From Tistrella mobilis KA081020-065 (GTDB lineage: Bacteria; Pseudomonadota; Alphaproteobacteria; Tistrellales; Tistrellaceae), in contig NC_017956.1 of assembly GCF_000264455.2 (NCBI RefSeq), positions 2,029,501 through 2,093,500 of the forward strand: 64,000 bases of DNA, in the 5' to 3' direction. Made by a program: the position numbers and the translations under genes. Below the pieces are notes generated by a model. It was not told where the DNA came from. It made no database searches and worked only from the letters and a program-made list of their open reading frames with translations. Positions 54,200 to 64,000 of this stretch are shown here, in pieces (position 1 is the first letter of the stretch; each line of letters begins with the position of its first letter).

Positions 54200-56335
54200 A
54201 TGCGCCAGCCCTGCCCGTTCCTCGTTTTGCCCCTGCTCGCCACCGTCGCCACGGGGGCATTGATGGTCAGTCAGGCCCGCGCCGAGGATGCGCAGAGCCT
54301 GCCGTCGCTGGAGGTGGAGGACGAGCGGAGCTTCCCGTCGGATCCCGGCCGGACCGAGGGCAGCACCAGCTATGGCTCCGATCGTGTCGCCGTGGGCGGC
54401 AAGCAGGTGCGCGACATTCGCGAAGTGCCCCGTTCGGTCAGCGTCGCCACCCGCGCGCGAATGGACGACCAGAACATGACCCAGCTTGAAGACGTCGCGC
54501 GGCGCACGCCCGGCTTTCTGGCACTGACCAACGATCCCGGCCGGTCGAGCATCTTCGTGCGTGGCTACGAAATCGACAACGCCCTGGTCGACGGCCTGCC
54601 GGCACCGATCTCCAGCATCTACGGCACCCAGCCCGACCTTGCGATCTTCGATCGCGTCGAGCTGCTGCGCGGGCCCTCGGTGCTGTTCGGCGGCACGGGC
54701 GAGCCCGGCGGCATCGTCAATCTGGTCCGCAAGCGGCCGACCGAGATCTTCCAGGCCCGGGGCACGCTGGAGGCGGGGTCGTGGAACAATTACCGCGGGG
54801 TCGCCGACGTCTCCGGCCCGCTTTCCGCCGACGGCTCGATCCGTGGCCGGGTGGTCGGCGCCTATCAGGACCGGGAGAGCTTCACCGACGTGACCGAAAA
54901 CCAGGTCGGCGTCGGCTATGCCGCGATCGATGCCGATCTGGGTGAGGATACCCTGCTCTCGCTCGGCGCCTGGCGGCAGGAACGCGAGGCGACCCCGTTC
55001 AGCGGCCTGCCGGTCTCGACCACCGGCCAGTCGCTGGGCCTCAGCCGCTCGACCTTCGTGGGCGCCGACTGGAACCGGTTCGAGAACAGCTCCAATGAAG
55101 CCTCGGCCAGCCTCACCCATCGCTTCGGTGACGACAGCCGGCTGCAGTTCGGCGGCCGGGTGGCCGATCGCAGTGTCGATCTGAAATATGCCTATGGTTC
55201 CACCGCAGTGGATCCGGCCATCGGCACCACCGACCTCATCGCCATTCAGCGCCACTATGAAGAGCGCGCCTATGCGCTGGATGCCAATTATCTGAAGCCG
55301 ATCGAAGCCTTCGGGCAGCGTCATGAACTGCTGATCGGGGCGGACTGGCGGCGGTACGTCCAGTCCCTGGATGCCGGTACCGCCCGCGGCCTGGGCACGG
55401 TGAACGTCTACAACCCGTCATCCGACATCGCCGAGCCGGACATCGCCATCAGCCAGCGTACCCGCACCGAACCCGAACAGTTCGGCATCTACGCCCAGGC
55501 CACCATCCGCCCGGTCGAAGACTGGACCGTGCTTCTGGGCGGCCGCCTGGCCTGGGCCGAGACCCGGGTGACCAACCGCAACACCGGATCGGTGTCGAGC
55601 GTCAAAGACAGTGCAGAGTTCATTCCCGATGTCGGCATCGTCTACGACCTGACGCCCGACATCGCGCTCTACGCCAACTATTCCGGCATCTTTCAGCAGC
55701 AGACCGGCACCAATGCCGCCCTGGAAGCACTCAACCCGCGCACCGGAGAGCAGTACGAACTGGGCGTGAAGGCGAAGCTTGGCGACAGCGGACTGCTCGG
55801 CACCTTCGACGTCTTCCGGATGCGCGACAAGGACCGGGCGGTCGCGGTGAGCGGGACCACCTACTATGCCGAGGGCGCAGAGGTCGAATCCCGCGGCGTC
55901 GAGGCCGAGATCGCCGGCACCATCCTGCCGGGCTGGGAAGTCGAGGCCGGCTATACCTATACCCGCACCGAATACCTCAAGAACGCCACCACCGCGTCCG
56001 GCGGTACTTACAGCACCTATACGCCGAAGCATGTGGTCTCGGCCTTCACCCGCTACACCTTCCAGGACGGGCCGATGGCTGGCGTGCATCTGGGCGGCGG
56101 CGTGCGCTGGCTCAGCTCGTTCTACAATGTCGCCGGCAATCTCAAGATCGAAGAAGACGGCTATGTCGTGACCGACCTTCAGGCCGGCTGGGGCTTCGCG
56201 CCCGGCTATGACGTCACGCTCTCGGTCAACAACGTCTTCGACGAAGTCTATTACGACCGGGTCGGCGGTGCGGGGTTGTTCAACTATTACGGCGCGCCAC
56301 GCAACGTGCTGCTGTCGCTCAAGGCCAGCTTCTGA
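54200..56335 (+). CDS. TonB-dependent siderophore receptor
   Basis: This 711-residue outer-membrane protein has a signal peptide (LLATVATGALMVSQARAED), a plug domain (VRDIREVPRSVSVATRARMD, MTQLEDVARRTPGFLAL, FVRGYEIDNALVDGLPAP, FDRVELLRGPSVLFGGTGEP) and a 22-strand-type barrel ending in LLSLKASF with a terminal Phe. The plug words are those of the FhuA/FpvA ferric-siderophore group. The siderophore is unknown and no biosynthesis genes are in view. The next gene is a DUF2218 protein. Confidence 0.93.
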   Translation: MRQPCPFLVLPLLATVATGALMVSQARAEDAQSLPSLEVEDERSFPSDPGRTEGSTSYGSDRVAVGGKQVRDIREVPRSVSVATRARMDDQNMTQLEDVARRTPGFLALTNDPGRSSIFVRGYEIDNALVDGLPAPISSIYGTQPDLAIFDRVELLRGPSVLFGGTGEPGGIVNLVRKRPTEIFQARGTLEAGSWNNYRGVADVSGPLSADGSIRGRVVGAYQDRESFTDVTENQVGVGYAAIDADLGEDTLLSLGAWRQEREATPFSGLPVSTTGQSLGLSRSTFVGADWNRFENSSNEASASLTHRFGDDSRLQFGGRVADRSVDLKYAYGSTAVDPAIGTTDLIAIQRHYEERAYALDANYLKPIEAFGQRHELLIGADWRRYVQSLDAGTARGLGTVNVYNPSSDIAEPDIAISQRTRTEPEQFGIYAQATIRPVEDWTVLLGGRLAWAETRVTNRNTGSVSSVKDSAEFIPDVGIVYDLTPDIALYANYSGIFQQQTGTNAALEALNPRTGEQYELGVKAKLGDSGLLGTFDVFRMRDKDRAVAVSGTTYYAEGAEVESRGVEAEIAGTILPGWEVEAGYTYTRTEYLKNATTASGGTYSTYTPKHVVSAFTRYTFQDGPMAGVHLGGGVRWLSSFYNVAGNLKIEEDGYVVTDLQAGWGFAPGYDVTLSVNNVFDEVYYDRVGGAGLFNYYGAPRNVLLSLKASF

Positions 56336-56366
56336 ACGAATGAGAAAGCTCCGAGGACGCCGTCGC

Positions 56367-56660
56367 ATGCCCCGTTCCGAAGCCCGCGTGGTCACCCAAC
56401 TCGGCCAGCGCTACATGACCCTGCTCTGCCGGCATTTCCGACACAAGGTGCCGGCAGAGGTCACCGGCGACACCGCCCGTGCCGATTTCCCCTGGGGGGC
56501 GGTCGCCCGGATGGCCGCAACCCCGGACCATCTGCAGGTGACCTGCACGGCAGGCAACCCCGCCGACCTTGCCCGCACCCAGGACGTGATCGCCATCCAC
56601 CTCGCCCGCTTCGCCTTCCGCGACAAGCCCGAGATCATCTGGCAGCCGCTGCCCGACTGA
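56367..56660 (+). CDS. DUF2218 domain-containing protein
   Basis: This 97-residue protein contains RVVTQLGQRYMTLLCRHFRHK, the typical DUF2218 opening, and ends with a segment around EIIWQPLP. DUF2218 proteins are small, of unknown function, and often neighbour iron-siderophore genes, as here. The start at 56367 has GAGGA about 10 nt before it; an in-frame ATG at 56340 is possible. It ends directly against the convergent alkB gene. Confidence 0.85.
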   Translation: MPRSEARVVTQLGQRYMTLLCRHFRHKVPAEVTGDTARADFPWGAVARMAATPDHLQVTCTAGNPADLARTQDVIAIHLARFAFRDKPEIIWQPLPD

Positions 56661-57311
56661 TCAGCGCCCGCCTCCGGCGCAGCGGAAGGTGATGTTGATC
56701 CGCCGCTGCCCGGTCGCCGGGTGGGATCCGTCGCGCAGCTCTTTCACCCCGTGATGGGCAAGCCGCCAGGCGCCGCCCCAGACCACGACATCGCCATGGA
56801 CCAGGTCGATATTGGTGACCGGATCCCTGCGCGACGGCCCGCCGAACTGGAACACCGCCGGCAGGCCGAGCGAGACCGAGACGATCGGCTGGGTGAGATC
56901 GCCCTCGTCACGATCCTGATGCATGCCCAGCCGTGCGCCAGGGGTGTAGAGATTGATCAGACAGGCATCGGGCCGGAAGCCGGGGAAACCGGCCGCCGTT
57001 GCGGCCCGATCGGCAAGGTCCCCGAAGAGCGCCGGCATCTCCGGCCAGGGGCGGCCACTCTCGGGGTCGATCGGATCGTAGCGATAGCCGCGCCGGTCCG
57101 ACACCCAGCCGAGCCGGCCGCAATTGGTCATGGCCACCGACATGCGGCGCCCGCCCGGCGTTATCAGATGCCGGAAAGGCGCCGCGGCGGTGACGGCCTG
57201 AACCGCCTGCAGCAGGCCGGCCGCAACCGGCAGCGCGAAACCATCGAGCAGATGCGCACCGGGCGCGCTCCGCCGCGGCAGATCGTCGAAGAGCAGGCCG
57301 TTGGCGGGCAT
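56661..57311 (-). CDS. alkB: alpha-ketoglutarate-dependent DNA dioxygenase AlkB
   Basis: This 216-residue Fe(II)/2-oxoglutarate enzyme removes alkyl groups from N1-methyladenine, N3-methylcytosine and similar lesions. Iron ligands are His131 and Asp133 (HQD) and His187 (AHHGV). Arg204 and Arg210 near the C-terminus bind the cosubstrate. These numbers match E. coli AlkB closely. TNCGRLGWVSDRRGYRY is the nucleotide-recognition region. It lies 17 nt downstream of a second 2OG oxygenase. Confidence 0.95.
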   Translation of the reverse strand: MPANGLLFDDLPRRSAPGAHLLDGFALPVAAGLLQAVQAVTAAAPFRHLITPGGRRMSVAMTNCGRLGWVSDRRGYRYDPIDPESGRPWPEMPALFGDLADRAATAAGFPGFRPDACLINLYTPGARLGMHQDRDEGDLTQPIVSVSLGLPAVFQFGGPSRRDPVTNIDLVHGDVVVWGGAWRLAHHGVKELRDGSHPATGQRRINITFRCAGGGR

Positions 57312-57328
57312 GAGGCCGTTCCTCTCCG

Positions 57329-58042
57329 TCAGGCGGCGTCATGGAAGATGATGCCGAGCGTCCGCCGCCGGCCGCTCCGCACCCGTGCCACCCCGTGGCG
57401 CATGGTGACGCGATAGTCGCCGCGCGATCCCCTGACCGGCCGCTGATTGACCGCAAAGATCACGGCATCCCCTTGCCCCAGCGGCACGACATCGGGCCGC
57501 GACTGCATGCGCGGGCGCTGCTCGGTCAGCACGAATTCGCCCCCGGTAAAGTCACGGCCGGGCGCCGAAAGCAGCACCGCGATCTGCAGCGGGAAGACAT
57601 GCGCGCCATAGAGATCCTGGTGCAGGCAGTTATAGTCCCCGGGGCCGTAGTCGAGCAGCAGCGGCGTGGGCCGCCTCTGGCCGGCGGCGTGGCAGCGGGC
57701 GATGAAGTCGCGATGCGTGTCGGGGAACCGGACATCCAGGCCCATCCGCTGATGCCAGCCATGAGCGATCGGCACCAGATACGGCCAGGCCACCTCCCTG
57801 ATGGCCAAGACCAGTTCGGGCAGCGGATGCGCGAAGTACTTGTAGCGGCCCTGCCCGAAGCCATGCCGGGCCATGATCACCTCCGACCGGAAACCCTCCT
57901 CCCGCTCGTAGAGCCCCGCAAGCGCCGCGCAGCTCCGTTCATCGAACAAGCCTGGCAGCACTGCCCGGCCGCCTGCATCCAGATCGCCGGCGACGGCGCT
58001 CCAGTCGGTGGTGTTCAGCCGGGCGATCGGGTGTTGCTGCAT
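57329..58042 (-). CDS. 2OG-Fe(II) oxygenase
   Basis: This 237-residue oxygenase has the facial triad His141-x-Asp143 (LHQDLYG) and His216 (RHGVAR), with Arg226/227 as likely cosubstrate ligand. The N-terminal half has YKYFAHPLPELVLAIREVAWPYL and PTPLLLDYGPGDYNCLHQD, typical of a family commonly found beside alkB or ada. Its substrate is not established. The order on the strand (this gene, then alkB 17 nt later) points to a shared transcript and role in alkylation damage. Confidence 0.85.
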   Translation of the reverse strand: MQQHPIARLNTTDWSAVAGDLDAGGRAVLPGLFDERSCAALAGLYEREEGFRSEVIMARHGFGQGRYKYFAHPLPELVLAIREVAWPYLVPIAHGWHQRMGLDVRFPDTHRDFIARCHAAGQRRPTPLLLDYGPGDYNCLHQDLYGAHVFPLQIAVLLSAPGRDFTGGEFVLTEQRPRMQSRPDVVPLGQGDAVIFAVNQRPVRGSRGDYRVTMRHGVARVRSGRRRTLGIIFHDAA

Positions 58043-58072
58043 GGGGGCCTCTCGGTCGGATCAGATGGGAAA

Positions 58073-58099
58073 GACGGAACCGGATCATGCGGTTCCGTC
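58073..58099 (-). terminator. possible terminator after pyruvate kinase
   Basis: A 9-bp perfect stem (58073-58081 with 58091-58099) around 9 nt is followed on the minus strand by TTTCCC. It could partly end transcription between pyk and the 2OG oxygenase. Confidence 0.4.
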
Positions 58100-58132
58100 C
58101 CGTCTCCCGCACCTCGCGGCCGGACAGAGAAG

Positions 58133-59560
58133 TCAGTTTCCGTCGGCGCGGACCACCCGGATGTTGTTGGTCGACCCCGCCTGCCCGAAGGGGATGCCGG
58201 CCACCACCACCACCGGATCGGCGGGCCCGGCCAGTTCCTGCTCCATCACCGTGCGGGTCGCCTTCTCCACCATCTCCTCATAGGAATGGATTTCTTCCGA
58301 GAGCACGCTGTGCGCGCCCCAGAGCAGGCAAAGCCGCCGCGAGACAGGCAGGTTCGGGGTCGTCGCCAGGATCTGCGCGGCGGGGCGACGGCGAGCGATG
58401 CGGGCTGCGGTCGTGCCGCTGGAGGTGAAGGCCACCAGCGCCGGAGCACCGAGTGCCACGGCGAGGTCGGCGGCGGCAGCGGCCACCGCATGCGGCGCGC
58501 TGGTTTCCTCACGCGGGCCCGAGGCATCGACGATGCTGCGGTAGAATTTGTGCTGCTCGGTACGGCGGATGATCCGGTCCATCATCTCCACCGCTTCCAC
58601 CGGATATTGACCGGCGGCCGATTCGGCCGAGAGCATCACCGCATCCGCCCCGTCATAGATCGCCGTCGCGACGTCGGAGGCTTCGGCGCGTGTCGGCGTC
58701 GGGGCCGCGACCATCGAATCGAGCATCTGCGTCGCCACGATCACCGGCTTGGCGGCGAAGCGGCAGGCACGCACCAGCTCTTTCTGCCGGCCGGGCACGT
58801 CCTCGGGCGGGATCTCCACGCCCAGATCGCCCCGGGCGACCATCACCGCATCTGCGAGTGCGACGATCTCGTCGACATGGTCCAGCGCCGAGGGCTTTTC
58901 GACCTTGGCGACGAGCCCTGCCCGATCGCCGATCAGCCCGCGCGCCTCCAGCAGATCACCCGGCCGCTGCACGAAAGAGAGCGCCACCCAGTCGACCCCC
59001 AGCTCCAGCCCGAAGGCCAGATCCGCGCGGTCCTTGGGGGTCAGCGGCGACATGTCGAGCACCGTGCCGGGCAGGTTCACGCCCTTGCGGTTGGAGATGA
59101 CGCCGCCGATCTCCACCTCGGCATCGATATGGTCGTCGCCGAGGCCGGTAACCCGCAGCCGGACCCGGCCGTCATCGATCAGCAGATGATGGCCGGGCAA
59201 CACCGCCGCAAAGATCTCGGGATGCGGCAAGGGGATCGCCTCCGGTCCGCCCTCGCTGCCGTTCAGCACGAAGCGCAGCGCCTGACCGGGCGTGACCTCG
59301 ATCCGGCCGTCACGGATGGTGCCGACCCGGATCTTGGGGCCCTGAAGATCCTGCAGAATGCCGATCGGCCGGTGATGCTTGTCTTCCAGCGCCCGGATGG
59401 CGGCATGGACCCGGGCATGGTCGTCATGGCTGCCATGGCTGAAATTCAGCCGGAAGGTATCCACCCCGGCGCGAAACAGCGCCTCGAGCATGGCCGGGTC
59501 CGCACTCGCGGGTCCGACGGTTGCGACGATCTTGGCGCGACGCTTGCGGCGCATGATCAC
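58133..59560 (-). CDS. pyk: pyruvate kinase
   Basis: This 475-residue glycolytic enzyme makes pyruvate and ATP from phosphoenolpyruvate and ADP. RRAKIVATVGPASAD, FRLNFSHGS, VEIPPEDVPGRQKELV and the MLDSMVAAPTPTRAEASDVA region are pyruvate-kinase signatures (catalytic Lys in LVAKVEKPSAL). The GTG at 59560 overlaps the stop of the DUF4130 gene (GTGA), so the two are coupled; an ATG at 59554 is the alternative. A glycolytic gene behind two DNA-repair-type genes is unusual. Confidence 0.96.
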   Translation of the reverse strand: MIMRRKRRAKIVATVGPASADPAMLEALFRAGVDTFRLNFSHGSHDDHARVHAAIRALEDKHHRPIGILQDLQGPKIRVGTIRDGRIEVTPGQALRFVLNGSEGGPEAIPLPHPEIFAAVLPGHHLLIDDGRVRLRVTGLGDDHIDAEVEIGGVISNRKGVNLPGTVLDMSPLTPKDRADLAFGLELGVDWVALSFVQRPGDLLEARGLIGDRAGLVAKVEKPSALDHVDEIVALADAVMVARGDLGVEIPPEDVPGRQKELVRACRFAAKPVIVATQMLDSMVAAPTPTRAEASDVATAIYDGADAVMLSAESAAGQYPVEAVEMMDRIIRRTEQHKFYRSIVDASGPREETSAPHAVAAAAADLAVALGAPALVAFTSSGTTAARIARRRPAAQILATTPNLPVSRRLCLLWGAHSVLSEEIHSYEEMVEKATRTVMEQELAGPADPVVVVAGIPFGQAGSTNNIRVVRADGN

Positions 59561-60531
59561 GAACGGCCCCTGGGGCCGCCTCCCTCGTCATGACTGGGGC
59601 CGCCGGGGGCGACCATGGGATCGGCAAGCATGGGCTGCGCCGATCCCGGTTGCAAGTCTCCCGGTGACAAGTCTCCCGGTGAGGGGCCGTCGCGCGCGCC
59701 CGTCTTCACCCGCCGTGCCGCCAGACGGTGATGAAAGGCCGGCGCCGGGCGCCCGGCCGTTTCGGCCATGCCCCGCACCCGGGCCTCCGCCCCGGCGATC
59801 AGCTCCGGGATCAGGGCGGCTTCGGGCAGGTTCGCCCAGTACTTCACCGGCATTTCCGCGCGCATCGCCCTGGGTTTCAACCGAGCCGGATTGAAGATGC
59901 CGGCGTAATAGGTCAGCCACAACGCCTCGGTTTCGTCGGCCAGATCCGGGCGCGTGGCGGGTTCGGTCGAGACCGTCAACGTGGTGCCGTCGAAAGCGGC
60001 ACTGCCGCGCGGTGTCAGGATCATCCAGTCCATATCGGCGAAGCGGCCCCGGAAGAAGGGGGCGGTGCGGGCAACGACGTAGTGATCGGGCTCGAACCAG
60101 GCGACGAAACGCCGCCGGCCGGTCGGGCCCGGCGGCCCCGCCTCGCGGAAGCGCACGAAAGCGGTCATCTTATGGGCATCGCGCCGCACCGCCTTCTCCA
60201 GCCGCGTCGCTGCGACGACATCCGGATCGGTGCGCTGCCCAAGCAGCTGCCGGTCCTGGACCAGACGCCAGAGCAGACGGTAGAGCAGTCCGAACCGGAC
60301 CGGATCGGCATGGCAGATCACCGACCGGGCAAGGTCGAGAAAAGCCGCCGGCACGCCCGGTGCCTCGGCGCCGGGGGCCGGATCGGGAAGGGGCGGCGGC
60401 GGATCGAACAATTGCCCCCCGTCCGCCGGTTCCCAGGCCACCCTTTCGGGCGGCACCCCGGCCATCAGCAGGGCGCGCGCCGCCCGCCGCCATTCCTCGA
60501 AATCTCCCCGTCCGGTCAACGCGGCCCGCAT
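59557..60531 (-). CDS. DUF4130 / TIGR03915-type putative DNA repair protein
   Basis: This 324-residue protein matches the family that always accompanies a DNA-repair radical SAM protein. Landmarks are FGLLYRLLWRLVQDRQLL, AHKMTAFVRFRE, FVAWFEPDHYVVARTAPFF, MDWMILTPRGSAAFD and LWLTYYAGIFNPARLKPRAM. In many bacteria a uracil-DNA glycosylase domain (UdgX-type) follows in the same chain. Here the protein ends soon after the DUF4130 part in a Gly/Pro-rich tail with a duplicated SPGDL unit. It lies 15 nt after the radical SAM gene and overlaps pyk by 4 nt. Confidence 0.85.
   Translation of the reverse strand: MRAALTGRGDFEEWRRAARALLMAGVPPERVAWEPADGGQLFDPPPPLPDPAPGAEAPGVPAAFLDLARSVICHADPVRFGLLYRLLWRLVQDRQLLGQRTDPDVVAATRLEKAVRRDAHKMTAFVRFREAGPPGPTGRRRFVAWFEPDHYVVARTAPFFRGRFADMDWMILTPRGSAAFDGTTLTVSTEPATRPDLADETEALWLTYYAGIFNPARLKPRAMRAEMPVKYWANLPEAALIPELIAGAEARVRGMAETAGRPAPAFHHRLAARRVKTGARDGPSPGDLSPGDLQPGSAQPMLADPMVAPGGPSHDEGGGPRGRS
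59655..59682 (-). repeat. 15-bp tandem repeat in the DUF4130 tail
   Basis: The unit with core TCTCCCGGTGA on the plus strand occurs twice in direct succession at a 15-bp period, encoding SPGDL twice. It lies in the non-conserved C-terminal tail. Confidence 0.6.
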
Positions 60532-60546
60532 GCGGCTCCTCCCGGT

Positions 60547-61776
60547 TCAGAACAGTGCCAGCTGTGCCGGCGGCGCCACCAGCGCCCGCAGATCCTCGCG
60601 ATCGATCAGCCTGAGCGGCGTCCAGCCCCGGGCGGTGATGAAGGGCTTCACCTTGGGCAGCGACACGCGCAGCCGCCCCAGATCATCAAGCCCCAGCCGA
60701 CGATACCGCCTTGCCGACAGGATCGCCGTGACGGTCTTCACCCCGAACCCCGGCACCCTGAGCAGCATCTCCCGCGGCGCCCCGTTAACATCGACGGGGA
60801 AGAGCTGGCGGTTCACCAACGCCCAGGCGAGTTTGGGATCGATTTCCAGATCGAGCATGCCGTCCGGCCGGCCGGCGGTGATCTCACCCGGCGCGAAGCC
60901 ATAGAAGCGGAACAGCCAGTCCGCCTGATAGAGCCGATGCTCGCGTTCCAGCGGCGGGCGAACCGGCGGCAGCCGGCGCGAAGCTTCTGGAATAGGGCTG
61001 AAGGCCGAGTAGTAGACCCGCCGCAGCCCATAGGCCTCATAGAGCCCGCCGGCCGTGGCCAGGATCCCGGCGTCGCTGGTCTCGCAGGCGCCGACGATCA
61101 TCTGGGTCGACTGTCCGGCCGGCGCGAAGCGGTGCCGCTTCCGGGTGCGCAGGGTTGGCTCGGCGCTCTCTTCGATCCGTGCGCGGATGCCGCCCATGGC
61201 TCTCCGGATCTCCTGCGGCCGCTTCTCGGGGGCAAGCTCGGCGAGAGCCCGTTCGGTCGGCAGTTCGACATTGATCGACAGCCGGTCGGCGAACAGCCCG
61301 GCCTCCGCGATCAGCTCCGGCGCGGCATCGGGGATGGTCTTCAGATGGATATAGCCACGAAAGCCGTGGGTGAGCCTCAGCTCGCGCGCCACCCGCACCA
61401 GTTCGGCCATCGTGTGATCGGGGGAGCGGATGATGCCCGACGACAGGAACAGCCCTTCGATGTAGTTGCGTCGATAGAATTCGAGCGTCAGCCAGACCAC
61501 CTCTTCCGGCGTGAACCGCGCCCGGGCGACATTGCTGGAGGACCGGTTGATGCAATAGGCGCAGTCGTAGATGCAGAAATTGGTCAGCAGGATCTTGAGC
61601 AGAGAGATGCAGCGCCCGTCCGGCGCATAGGCGTGGCAGATGCCCATGCCGGTGGTGGAGCCGAGCCCGCCGGTCGCCGCCGAATCGCGCCGGCCACCGC
61701 CACTCGATGCGCAGGAGGCATCGTATTTGGCGGCGTCGGACAGGATGGCCAGACGGTCTTTCAGCGACATCTTCAT
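60547..61776 (-). CDS. putative DNA modification/repair radical SAM protein
   Basis: This 409-residue protein is of the TIGR03916 kind. The radical SAM cluster motif is CIYDCAYC (Cys68, Cys72, Cys75). GICHAYAPDGRCISLLKIL, FTPEEVVWLTLEFYRRNYIE and LFLSSGIIRSPDHTM are family words. The C-terminus has a helix-hairpin-helix segment (LLRVPGFGVKTVTAILSARR) suited to DNA contact. It is paired with DUF4130 in the same operon, the usual arrangement. A LexA box overlaps its promoter. A second ATG lies two codons downstream (61770). Confidence 0.92.
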   Translation of the reverse strand: MKMSLKDRLAILSDAAKYDASCASSGGGRRDSAATGGLGSTTGMGICHAYAPDGRCISLLKILLTNFCIYDCAYCINRSSSNVARARFTPEEVVWLTLEFYRRNYIEGLFLSSGIIRSPDHTMAELVRVARELRLTHGFRGYIHLKTIPDAAPELIAEAGLFADRLSINVELPTERALAELAPEKRPQEIRRAMGGIRARIEESAEPTLRTRKRHRFAPAGQSTQMIVGACETSDAGILATAGGLYEAYGLRRVYYSAFSPIPEASRRLPPVRPPLEREHRLYQADWLFRFYGFAPGEITAGRPDGMLDLEIDPKLAWALVNRQLFPVDVNGAPREMLLRVPGFGVKTVTAILSARRYRRLGLDDLGRLRVSLPKVKPFITARGWTPLRLIDREDLRALVAPPAQLALF

Positions 61777-61780
61777 GGAT

Positions 61781-61795
61781 GTTCACTATATGTTC
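61781..61795 (-). promoter_or_regulatory. LexA box (SOS operator) of the radical SAM operon
   Basis: GTTCACTATATGTTC is a perfect copy of the alphaproteobacterial LexA site GTTC-N7-GTTC. It ends 5 nt before the radical SAM start codon and covers the -10 element. LexA binding would block the promoter until DNA damage. Confidence 0.9.
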
Positions 61796-61812
61796 TGAAG
61801 GCGGCCGGTCAA
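61785..61812 (-). promoter_or_regulatory. promoter of the radical SAM operon
   Basis: On the minus strand TTGACC (61812-61807), 16 nt and TATAGT (61790-61785) form a strong promoter. Only 8 nt separate TATAGT from the ATG at 61776, so transcription should start at or next to that codon. The -35 box overlaps the end of the upstream cation-transporter gene. Confidence 0.75.
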
Positions 61813-62771
61813 GGCCCCGCCTCTGCCTCTCCGCTGCGCCGCACCACCTGCTGCCGCCAGGCCTCGGGCGTCTGCGGCTTCACATAGAGGGCCACAACCT
61901 GCGGATGGTCTGCGGTGAGCGCCGCTTCCAGACGTTCGATACAGGCCTCAATGGCGGTGGTGGTGGTCGTGTCTTCGAATTCTGCGCTCAGCGCCACCAC
62001 CACCTGTTCCGGCGCCAGATGGACGGTGACCACGCCGTTCACCGCCCGGATCACCGGATCGGCATGCGCGCGTTCGATGATGGCAGCCTGCAATGCCGGC
62101 GCCGCCCGCTCGCCGATCAGCAGCCCCATGCTCTCGCGCGCCAGGAAGACGGCGGTTGCCGCCAGAACCAGACCAATGCCGATGGAGGCGGCGCCATCCA
62201 GCTCCGGCATGTCGAGCAGATCGGCGGCGAGAATGCCCGCGGCTGCGATGACGATGCCGAGCAGGGCGGCGCTGTCTTCCAGGAGCACGGTGAAGACCGT
62301 CGGATCCTTGCTGCGCCGGATGGCGGTCAGCCAACCGAGATCGCCCTTCCGCGCCCGGAACTCCAGCAGCGCGACCCGCCAGGACCAGCCTTCGAACAGG
62401 AAGGCCAGCCCCAGCACCACATAGCTGACGGTCAGGTTGTCGGCCGGCTCCGGCGCCAGCACATGGCGGATGCCTTCGTAAAGCGACACCCCCGCCCCCA
62501 GGGCGAAGACCAGCAAGGCGACCACGAAGCTCCAGAAATAGAGCTCGCGGCCATAGCCCAGCGGGTGGATCTCGTCCGGCGGCCGGGATGAACGGCTAAG
62601 GCCGAGGAGGAGGAGCAGTTCGTTGCAGGTATCGACCAGCGAATGCACCCCCTCGCTCAGCATGGCCGAGCTGCCGGTGTAAACTGCGGCGGCGAATTTC
62701 GTCACCGCGATCGCCAGATTGCCGGCGAGTGCCGCATAGATCGTTCGTTTCGTGCCGGCGCTCGCCGTCAT
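61809..62771 (-). CDS. cation diffusion facilitator family transporter
   Basis: This 320-residue metal/proton antiporter has six membrane helices. The first metal-site helix reads MLSEGVHSLVDTCNELLLLL (Ser-Glu-x3-Ser-x2-Asp type). The middle helix has LLEDSAALLGIVIAAAGI (Glu-Asp site). The C-terminal cytosolic ferredoxin-like domain contains VIRAVNGVVTVHLAPEQVVV. The metal ion cannot be told from sequence. The ATG at 62771 has GAGAGG 7 nt before it. It sits 11 nt after the PQQ dehydrogenase stop, so the two may be co-transcribed. Confidence 0.88.
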   Translation of the reverse strand: MTASAGTKRTIYAALAGNLAIAVTKFAAAVYTGSSAMLSEGVHSLVDTCNELLLLLGLSRSSRPPDEIHPLGYGRELYFWSFVVALLVFALGAGVSLYEGIRHVLAPEPADNLTVSYVVLGLAFLFEGWSWRVALLEFRARKGDLGWLTAIRRSKDPTVFTVLLEDSAALLGIVIAAAGILAADLLDMPELDGAASIGIGLVLAATAVFLARESMGLLIGERAAPALQAAIIERAHADPVIRAVNGVVTVHLAPEQVVVALSAEFEDTTTTTAIEACIERLEAALTADHPQVVALYVKPQTPEAWRQQVVRRSGEAEAGP

Positions 62772-62782
62772 TGGCAATCCTC

Positions 62783-64000
62783 TCAGCCCTGGGGCAGCGC
62801 ATAGGCGATCAGTTCATCGCCGATCGGCGTTTCCATGAAGTGATGCCCGCCGGCCATGATCACCAGATACTGGCGGCCATCGATCTCGTAGGTCATCGGC
62901 GTCGCCTGGCCGCCGGCCGGCAGCACGTCGGACCAGACCGTCTCGCCGGTCTCGATGTCGATGGCCCGGATCAGGTTGTCGGTGGCGGCGGCGATGAAGA
63001 CCAGGCCGCCCGCGGTCACCACCGCTCCGCCGTTATTGGGCGTGCCGATATCGACCGGCAACATCGAGGGGATGCCGAAGGGGCCGTTGGTGCGGGCCTC
63101 GCCGAAGGGCCGGTCCCACAGGGTCTCGCCGGTTTCCATGTCGATCGCCCGGATGCCGCCATAGGGCGGCTCCTTGCAGAGCAGCAGGGTGACCGGCAGA
63201 CGCCAGCCGGCATTGACGTTGATGGCATAGGGCGTGCCGGCCTGCGGGTCGCCGGCCCCTTCCTGGCCGCCGAATTCCCCGCGTTCCTCGCTTCGCGGCG
63301 CCCAGCCCAGCCGCTCGGCTTCCTCGCGCGGAACCAGGCGGTTGTGGTTCGGCATGTCGTTGTAATTGGCTATGATCACGCCGCGGCTGGGATCGACGGC
63401 GATGCCGCCCCAATCGGAGCCGCCGTTATAGCCCGGATACTCCACCCAATGAGTGTCGGTGGTCGGCGGGGTGTAGAAGCCCTTATAGCTCGCCTGTCGA
63501 TACTGAATGCGGCAGATCATCTGATCGATCGGCGACATCCCCCACATCTTCGCCTCGGTCAGATCCTCGCGGCGCAGCGTATGGTAGAGCGAGAAGGGCT
63601 GGGTGGCCGACCGCTCGTCGGGCTCGACACCACCCTGCGGCACCGGCCTTTCCTCGACACCGGTGATCGGCCGGCCGGTCCGGCGGTCGAGCACATACAT
63701 GTCGCCCTGCTTGCTGGGCAGGATCAGCGCCGGCACCGCCCCCTCTCCGGTCGGGAAATCAACCAGGGTCGCCTGTGAGCCCAGGTCGTAATCCCAGACA
63801 TCCTTGTGCACGGTCTGGAACGACCAGACGGGCCGGCCCGTGTTCACGTCGATCGCGACCAGAGAAGTGGCATAGCGGTTCTCCGCCTCAGACCGGTCAC
63901 TGCTCCAATAATCGACCGCCGAATTGCCCATCGGCAGATAGACCAGACCCAGCTCTTCGTCGCCGGATGCCGTGGTCCACATATTGGGGGTGCCGCGGGT
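62783..64000 (-). CDS. membrane-type PQQ-dependent dehydrogenase, C-terminal part
   Basis: The reading frame is open through the window's right edge, so the 5' end is missing; about 405 residues are present. The propeller resembles glucose/quinate dehydrogenases: DEELGLVYLPMGNSAVDYW, WSFQTVHKDVWDYDLGSQAT, VPALILPSKQGDMYVLDRRT, MWGMSPIDQMICRI and YPGYNGGSDWGGIAVDP. The end has GGLVFIAAATDNLIRAIDIE and VLPAGGQATPMTYEIDGRQY. It would oxidise a sugar or polyol in the periplasm and pass electrons to ubiquinone; the substrate cannot be told. Confidence 0.9.
   Translation of the reverse strand, partial: TRGTPNMWTTASGDEELGLVYLPMGNSAVDYWSSDRSEAENRYATSLVAIDVNTGRPVWSFQTVHKDVWDYDLGSQATLVDFPTGEGAVPALILPSKQGDMYVLDRRTGRPITGVEERPVPQGGVEPDERSATQPFSLYHTLRREDLTEAKMWGMSPIDQMICRIQYRQASYKGFYTPPTTDTHWVEYPGYNGGSDWGGIAVDPSRGVIIANYNDMPNHNRLVPREEAERLGWAPRSEERGEFGGQEGAGDPQAGTPYAINVNAGWRLPVTLLLCKEPPYGGIRAIDMETGETLWDRPFGEARTNGPFGIPSMLPVDIGTPNNGGAVVTAGGLVFIAAATDNLIRAIDIETGETVWSDVLPAGGQATPMTYEIDGRQYLVIMAGGHHFMETPIGDELIAYALPQG

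Follow-up and report, generated by a model that had tools for sequence, protein, structure and literature searches.

We analyzed a cluster of five minus-strand genes in a stretch of 64,000 nt (the window) from contig NC_017956.1 (C1) of Tistrella mobilis KA081020-065, the genome of which comprises 6.5 Mb on five contigs. A first-pass annotation had placed these genes between positions 61776 and 56661, and matches to family models bore out both places and identities. The first gene (60547–61776) encodes a radical SAM protein (rSAM) of 409 aa with a CX3CX2C motif, which scored 561.5 bits with TIGR03916 (cut-off 343.5, E 1.2e-168). The second (59557–60531) starts 15 nt downstream and encodes a DUF4130 protein of 324 aa without a UdgX domain (TIGR03915, 205 bits, cut-off 112.25, E 1.4e-60). 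They are followed by the pyruvate kinase gene pyk (58133–59554; NF004886, E 2.7e-194), the gene of a 2-oxoglutarate-Fe(II) oxygenase of the Oxygenase-NA family (57329–58042; PF09859, E 1.5e-85), and the gene of AlkB (56661–57311; NF011930, E 1.4e-97). The annotated gaps of 15, 90 and 17 nt were also correct when read from the sequence. Gene order and an upstream LexA box were identical in all three Tistrella genomes compared, i.e., the window's own genome (G000), a second genome of the same species (G060), and a genome of a sister species (G001). The locus is a join of three modules in Tistrella, rSAM/DUF4130, pyk, and Oxygenase-NA/AlkB: a known SOS pair is combined, in this one genus as far as surveyed, with the only pyk gene found, and an alkylation pair lies behind it.

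The presence of a LexA-controlled promoter ahead of the rSAM gene, already proposed from the sequence, was upheld. The sigma70-like promoter TTGACC-N16-TATAGT (61785–61812, minus strand) agrees with the consensus at 10 of 12 positions, and the CDF gene upstream ends with its stop codon inside the −35 region. The −10 region is overlain by an exact LexA box, GAACATATAGTGAAC (61781–61795, minus strand), which ends 4 nt before the rSAM ATG. With the start codon so close behind a box that covers the −10 region, transcription is expected to start on this codon itself or right beside it. This was the sole promoter-like site found on the minus strand between 56600 and 61900. Genome-wide, GAACN7GAACA occurs 28 times versus 3 times for the reversed pattern. 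LexA boxes of the same make lie near genes recognized by eye as imuA and dinB, and the LexA-type box GAACATAACGGGAACA precedes a radical SAM gene of the PA0069 family in the same genome (C1:2962465). A box with one mismatch was read by eye before recA, and the lexA locus contained no exact LexA box.

The rSAM/DUF4130 pair was followed in two samples from other genomes. The first comprised 80 named outside loci, the best 80 of 586 confirmed rSAM relatives, with up to 8 kb on each side (some contigs were shorter). In the second, a sample of the class, rSAM exceeded the cut-off in 29 of 389 genomes, and all 26 loci from outside Tistrella were read. DUF4130 was the next gene after rSAM in every case (80/80 and 26/26, together 106/106). 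A GAACN7GAAC or GTTCN7GTTC box in either orientation was found by the rSAM start in 77 of the 80 named loci and in 25 of the 26 class loci (22 GAAC, 3 GTTC; locus L270 was without a box). Between −100 and +10, 72 of the 80 named loci had GAACN7GAAC, whereas the reversed pattern was present in just 1 of the 80, and random 111-bp windows from these loci gave 27 of 4000. Because the box and the DUF4130 gene recur across both samples, SOS control of the pair looks general, and it is strongly supported by this sequence comparison. In 63 of the 72 outside loci with GAACN7GAAC, the start codon (the first in-frame ATG, GTG or TTG) lies 0–7 nt behind the box, and the rSAM promoter looks like a near-leaderless LexA design, with the box over the −10 region, that is found in many Alphaproteobacteria.

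An SOS-regulated rSAM/DUF4130 pair is already known, and the Tistrella locus is not a new kind of system. We take COG4277 to be the TIGR03916 family of the window's rSAM. According to PMC8565304, a two-gene COG1573-COG4277 operon is under SOS control in Bacteroidetes and had been reported before from Verrucomicrobia and Alphaproteobacteria. DUF4130 is predicted in PMC3765255 to be an enzyme related to mutagenesis and is linked there with SplB-like radical SAM proteins and uracil DNA glycosylases (UDGs). The Tistrella locus shares with the published pair the rSAM of TIGR03916, the adjoining DUF4130 gene of TIGR03915, and the LexA box directly upstream, but its DUF4130 protein is without UdgX, and pyk stands tightly behind the pair, followed by the genes for Oxygenase-NA and AlkB. 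The 80 named loci were also examined for a third gene that recurs behind the pair, and this idea was rejected: in 45 of them, coding-like open reading frames (ORFs) on the same strand begin no more than 250 nt downstream, but no cluster comprises more than 3 loci.

Family-model scans of the window's DUF4130 protein yielded no UDG match. The outside DUF4130 proteins were short in 11 of 80 cases (249–284 aa) and long in 69 (397–554 aa, one cut by a contig end). The sole long protein scanned, from locus L098, matched TIGR03914 with 337.7 bits, and we take the long proteins, by their length, to be DUF4130-UdgX fusions. At locus L164, from a metagenome-assembled genome of the Sphingomonadales, the long DUF4130 gene overlaps at its end by 1 nt with the gene of a 1169-aa protein that resembles DnaE2 by eye. 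On an rSAM tree with 84 rows, the short form requires 8 changes, at least 7 of which are forced by well-supported branches. The window's rSAM groups among those of Rhizobiaceae, Asticcacaulis and Niveispirillum; the support of this fork is weak (84/76), and therefore a horizontal arrival of rSAM is no more than possible. Stand-alone UdgX-like genes exist on C2 of the window's genome (L249:3559-4557; TIGR03914, 260.8 bits) and on C13 of G060 (48.7% identity to the UdgX part of L098). In G001, none of the three PF03167 matches was UdgX: one protein had 35% identity to the UdgX part of L098, as had its counterparts in G000 and G060, and the other two had no match to it at 1e-3.

The junction of DUF4130 and pyk required a revision. 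The 4-nt GTGA overlap proposed in the first-pass annotation exists only if pyk starts with the GTG at 59560, and use of the ATG at 59554 results in a gap of 2 nt. The ATG is preferred because the pyruvate kinase model matches only from residue 3 onwards and because the leader in front of it is conserved; the overlap is thus probably a start-codon artefact. The tight DUF4130-pyk arrangement as such was retained in all three Tistrella genomes, but this gene order was not found elsewhere in the survey of the outside loci.

A protein alignment revealed that the 3′ tail of the DUF4130 gene (59557–59730, minus strand) has no counterpart in UDG-less relatives. The aligned UdgX-less proteins, two from Niveispirillum and one from Asticcacaulis, end about where the tail begins. 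This tail holds the pyk leader (59564–59586, minus strand), as recognized from sequence and conservation, which consists of the Shine-Dalgarno (SD) motif GAGGGAGG (59586–59579) and the hairpin CGGCC-CCAGG-GGCCG (59578–59564). The hairpin is followed by 9 nt and the ATG at 59554, and the DUF4130 stop codon lies between the two. In Azospirillum, the pyk leader is non-coding (intergenic) and consists of an SD motif, CGGCC-loop-GGCCG, 7 nt, and the ATG. We read this as the DUF4130 frame having run on into the pyk leader, and the overprinting of this leader by the DUF4130 3′ end is a new observation. The GC fractions at the three codon positions are 0.79/0.67/0.75 in the tail versus 0.73/0.56/0.83 in the DUF4130 core, and this weak codon pattern fits such a run-on. 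Synonymous conservation in the tail was no longer taken to prove a pyk promoter there, as the upstream CDF gene is even more conserved.

The strict SD-hairpin-ATG pattern was found in 17 of 22 close pyk leaders, the positives outside the genus being L292–L294, L297–L299, L301, L302, L305 and L309–L313. Of these leaders, 21 are distinct, including all 17 positives, and they are not independent, because three are from Tistrella and many from Azospirillum. L309 was missed by a narrower first pattern and matched by the strict final one. Of 1945 ATGs in the window, a single one is preceded by the pattern, and so is a single one of 16086 ATGs from 55 other loci; these two ATGs belong to the pyk genes of the window and of G001. 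BLASTN matched the window's pyk leader with leaders from Azospirillum and Methylorubrum. Across 10 aligned leaders, the five stem bases on each side are invariant, and loop length and letters vary; the stem formed in the single-sequence folds of all five leaders that were folded. The distance between SD motif and ATG is 24 nt, which folding of the stem would reduce to about 9 nt. For genes 38 and 25 of phage T4, the review PMC3014915 describes a stem-loop that shortens the SD-AUG spacing from 22 to 5 nt and from 27 to 11 nt, respectively. The pyk leader has in common with these split ribosome-binding sites an SD motif and AUG that are too far apart, an intervening stem-loop, and conservation in relatives. 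It differs in belonging to a cellular metabolic gene, in lying inside the upstream reading frame in Tistrella, and in that its effect on translation is a prediction. In a cellular housekeeping gene, it may thus represent a conserved ribosome-binding site that is split by a hairpin.

The pyk gene was the single TIGR01064 match in each of the three Tistrella genomes. The closest pyk genes in the plasmid collection, among the ten matches listed, are from Azospirillum and 77–79% identical. In three annotated Azospirillum records, for which the gene table is incomplete, the upstream neighbors of pyk are a regulator gene, an epimerase gene on the other strand, and a transposase gene on the other strand. 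One Allorhizobium record likewise has pyk directly behind another gene, that of glycerate kinase, whereas the upstream genes in Tistrella are SOS repair genes. Neither pyk nor the genes for Oxygenase-NA and AlkB were found near rSAM in any of the 80 named loci, and the latter two were also lacking near rSAM in the 26 class loci. One of the 26 class loci (L268) has a pyk gene near rSAM; it is divergent, 3.1 kb away and separated by other ORFs, and was judged to be a chance neighbor. The flanks of 30 other pyk genes, examined to about 400 nt each way, contained no LexA-like box. Literature searches gave no match for pyruvate kinase with a LexA/SOS radical SAM protein in Alphaproteobacteria, for Tistrella pyruvate kinase, or for UdgX with radical SAM, and these negatives hold for the searches made; a search on pyruvate kinase, glycolysis and the LexA-controlled SOS regulon listed papers on Synechococcus and Kineococcus.

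The distribution of the last two genes was analyzed with PF09859, which had 71 matching places in 70 of 290 class genomes; in 69 of these genomes the match exceeded the cut-off. The examination covered 69 of the places, a few of them at contig ends, and left aside G279, where the match was weak, and a second fragment in G235. AlkB is encoded on the same strand behind Oxygenase-NA at 16 of the 69 places, or 13 of 66 outside Tistrella, and pyk adjoins Oxygenase-NA only in the three Tistrella loci. In two Azospirillum plasmids, the Oxygenase-NA gene lies directly behind ada; in the window, no Ada match was obtained among the seven translations scanned between 56319 and 62777. The Tistrella genes resemble the known Oxygenase-NA plus AlkB (and Ada-Oxygenase-NA) pairs in being adjacent, on the same strand and separated by a short gap, but there is no ada in the stretch, and the pair is located behind pyk. 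Judged by these gene neighborhoods, Oxygenase-NA/AlkB is an independent pair for alkylation repair that also occurs where SOS control and pyk are lacking. LexA control of Oxygenase-NA elsewhere was rejected, as boxes in 3 of 68 loci are about the chance level estimated from random windows. These LexA-like boxes, 139–180 nt upstream of Oxygenase-NA in L067, L070 and L091, may be chance matches.

The gap of 90 nt between pyk and the Oxygenase-NA gene contains an inverted repeat (58073–58099, minus strand) that had been proposed as a possible divider between two adjacent units. Its local fold has −19.0 kcal/mol and a z-score of −3.08, and the whole gap has a z-score of −1.59. The case for a separator is weak, and the idea of a conserved terminator was dropped: the repeat lacks a T-run, mismatches in the sister species disrupt two of the ten base pairs, and no terminator-like sites were found between 56600 and 61900. 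Rfam gave no match at the gathering cut-off in the region 56300–62800. Beyond alkB, the minus-strand translation of 56660–56319 matched neither Pfam nor NCBIfam, and a gene on the plus strand (56208–56660) is more likely, because G001 has a plus-strand ORF of 97 aa at the equivalent place.

Taken together, we favor, with a probability of about two in three, the explanation that transcripts from the SOS promoter extend into pyk, that pyk retains a translation signal of its own, and that DNA damage raises pyk expression above a basal level. The LexA-repressed, near-leaderless promoter, recognized by sequence and conservation, would drive rSAM and DUF4130 upon induction. Transcription should then continue from DUF4130 into pyk, because the two genes have no gap between them and the scan found no terminator-like site before pyk. 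The pyk message would be translated on its own account from the SD motif brought to about 9 nt of the ATG by the hairpin, and ribosomes finishing DUF4130 would have to open this hairpin. The normal pyk level would probably be maintained by a basal promoter, located within the tail or ahead of it, or else by leaky repression, and damage would add to the amount of pyruvate kinase. The downstream Oxygenase-NA/AlkB genes form a separate alkylation-repair module that may share the read-through. Of the suggestion that all five genes form one damage-response unit, the part concerning the first two genes is thus supported and a shared transcript with the third is probable, but the fourth and fifth genes may or may not belong to it. 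We think that the arrangement arose as a join of neighbors, and any metabolic benefit is hypothetical.

Several results weigh against this explanation. The leader pattern is absent from 5 of the 22 nearer pyk leaders (L300, L303, L304, L314, L315), and the narrower pattern was found in none of 31 more distant pyk genes. The stem letters are invariant, and therefore no covariation supports the folding; the z-scores of leader folding are modest (−0.37 to −2.82, window −1.26). Third codon positions account for 5 of 10 substitutions in the tail versus 413 of 541, which is not significant (p 0.067), and synonymous conservation of the tail is no higher than that of the neighboring CDF gene. The promoter scan of 56600–61900 found no internal pyk promoter. 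Lastly, each of the three Tistrella genomes has a full-length match for pyruvate phosphate dikinase, and therefore pyk need not be essential.

The best-surviving alternative, which we nevertheless regard as unlikely, is mere adjacency: three unrelated units would lie side by side, pyk would be transcribed from its own promoter in the DUF4130 tail, and read-through would be negligible. The sharing of the pyk leader with relatives, the separate occurrence of the modules elsewhere, and the lack of a strong codon-position GC pattern in the tail are in agreement with it. However, there is neither a gap nor a terminator-like site before pyk, and the LexA promoter is the only promoter-like site found on the minus strand. 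Considerably less probable is a switch from damage to glycolysis (or, PykA-like, from damage to replication), with pyk wired into the SOS response via the LexA promoter and the split site setting how far translation of the repair genes permits that of pyk. Slightly more doubtful still is a true five-gene damage regulon, in which pyruvate kinase would serve repair by supplying ATP or dNTPs, by providing the oxygenases with 2-oxoglutarate or with electrons that derive from pyruvate, or by a moonlighting contact with DNA polymerase as reported for Bacillus subtilis PykA. Links of PykA to replication are reported in PMC9009071 and PMC10427196, and because of them a role of pyk in repair is possible by analogy; the conserved order in the three Tistrella genomes also speaks for a regulon. 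Against it, the same order was not found in the loci surveyed outside Tistrella, Oxygenase-NA/AlkB stands behind a gap of 90 nt, and Oxygenase-NA follows ada in the two Azospirillum plasmids. A chance match of the LexA box or an assembly artefact in the gene order can practically be dismissed, as nothing was found in its favor, three assemblies agree, and 77 of the 80 named outside loci have a box in the equivalent position.

If SOS transcription does reach the only pyk gene found, DNA damage would directly alter central carbon flux in Tistrella, and a proposed link between a glycolytic enzyme and DNA replication or repair would become testable. Independently of this, pyk may have a split ribosome-binding site in its conserved leader, and the rSAM promoter appears to represent a widely conserved near-leaderless LexA design.

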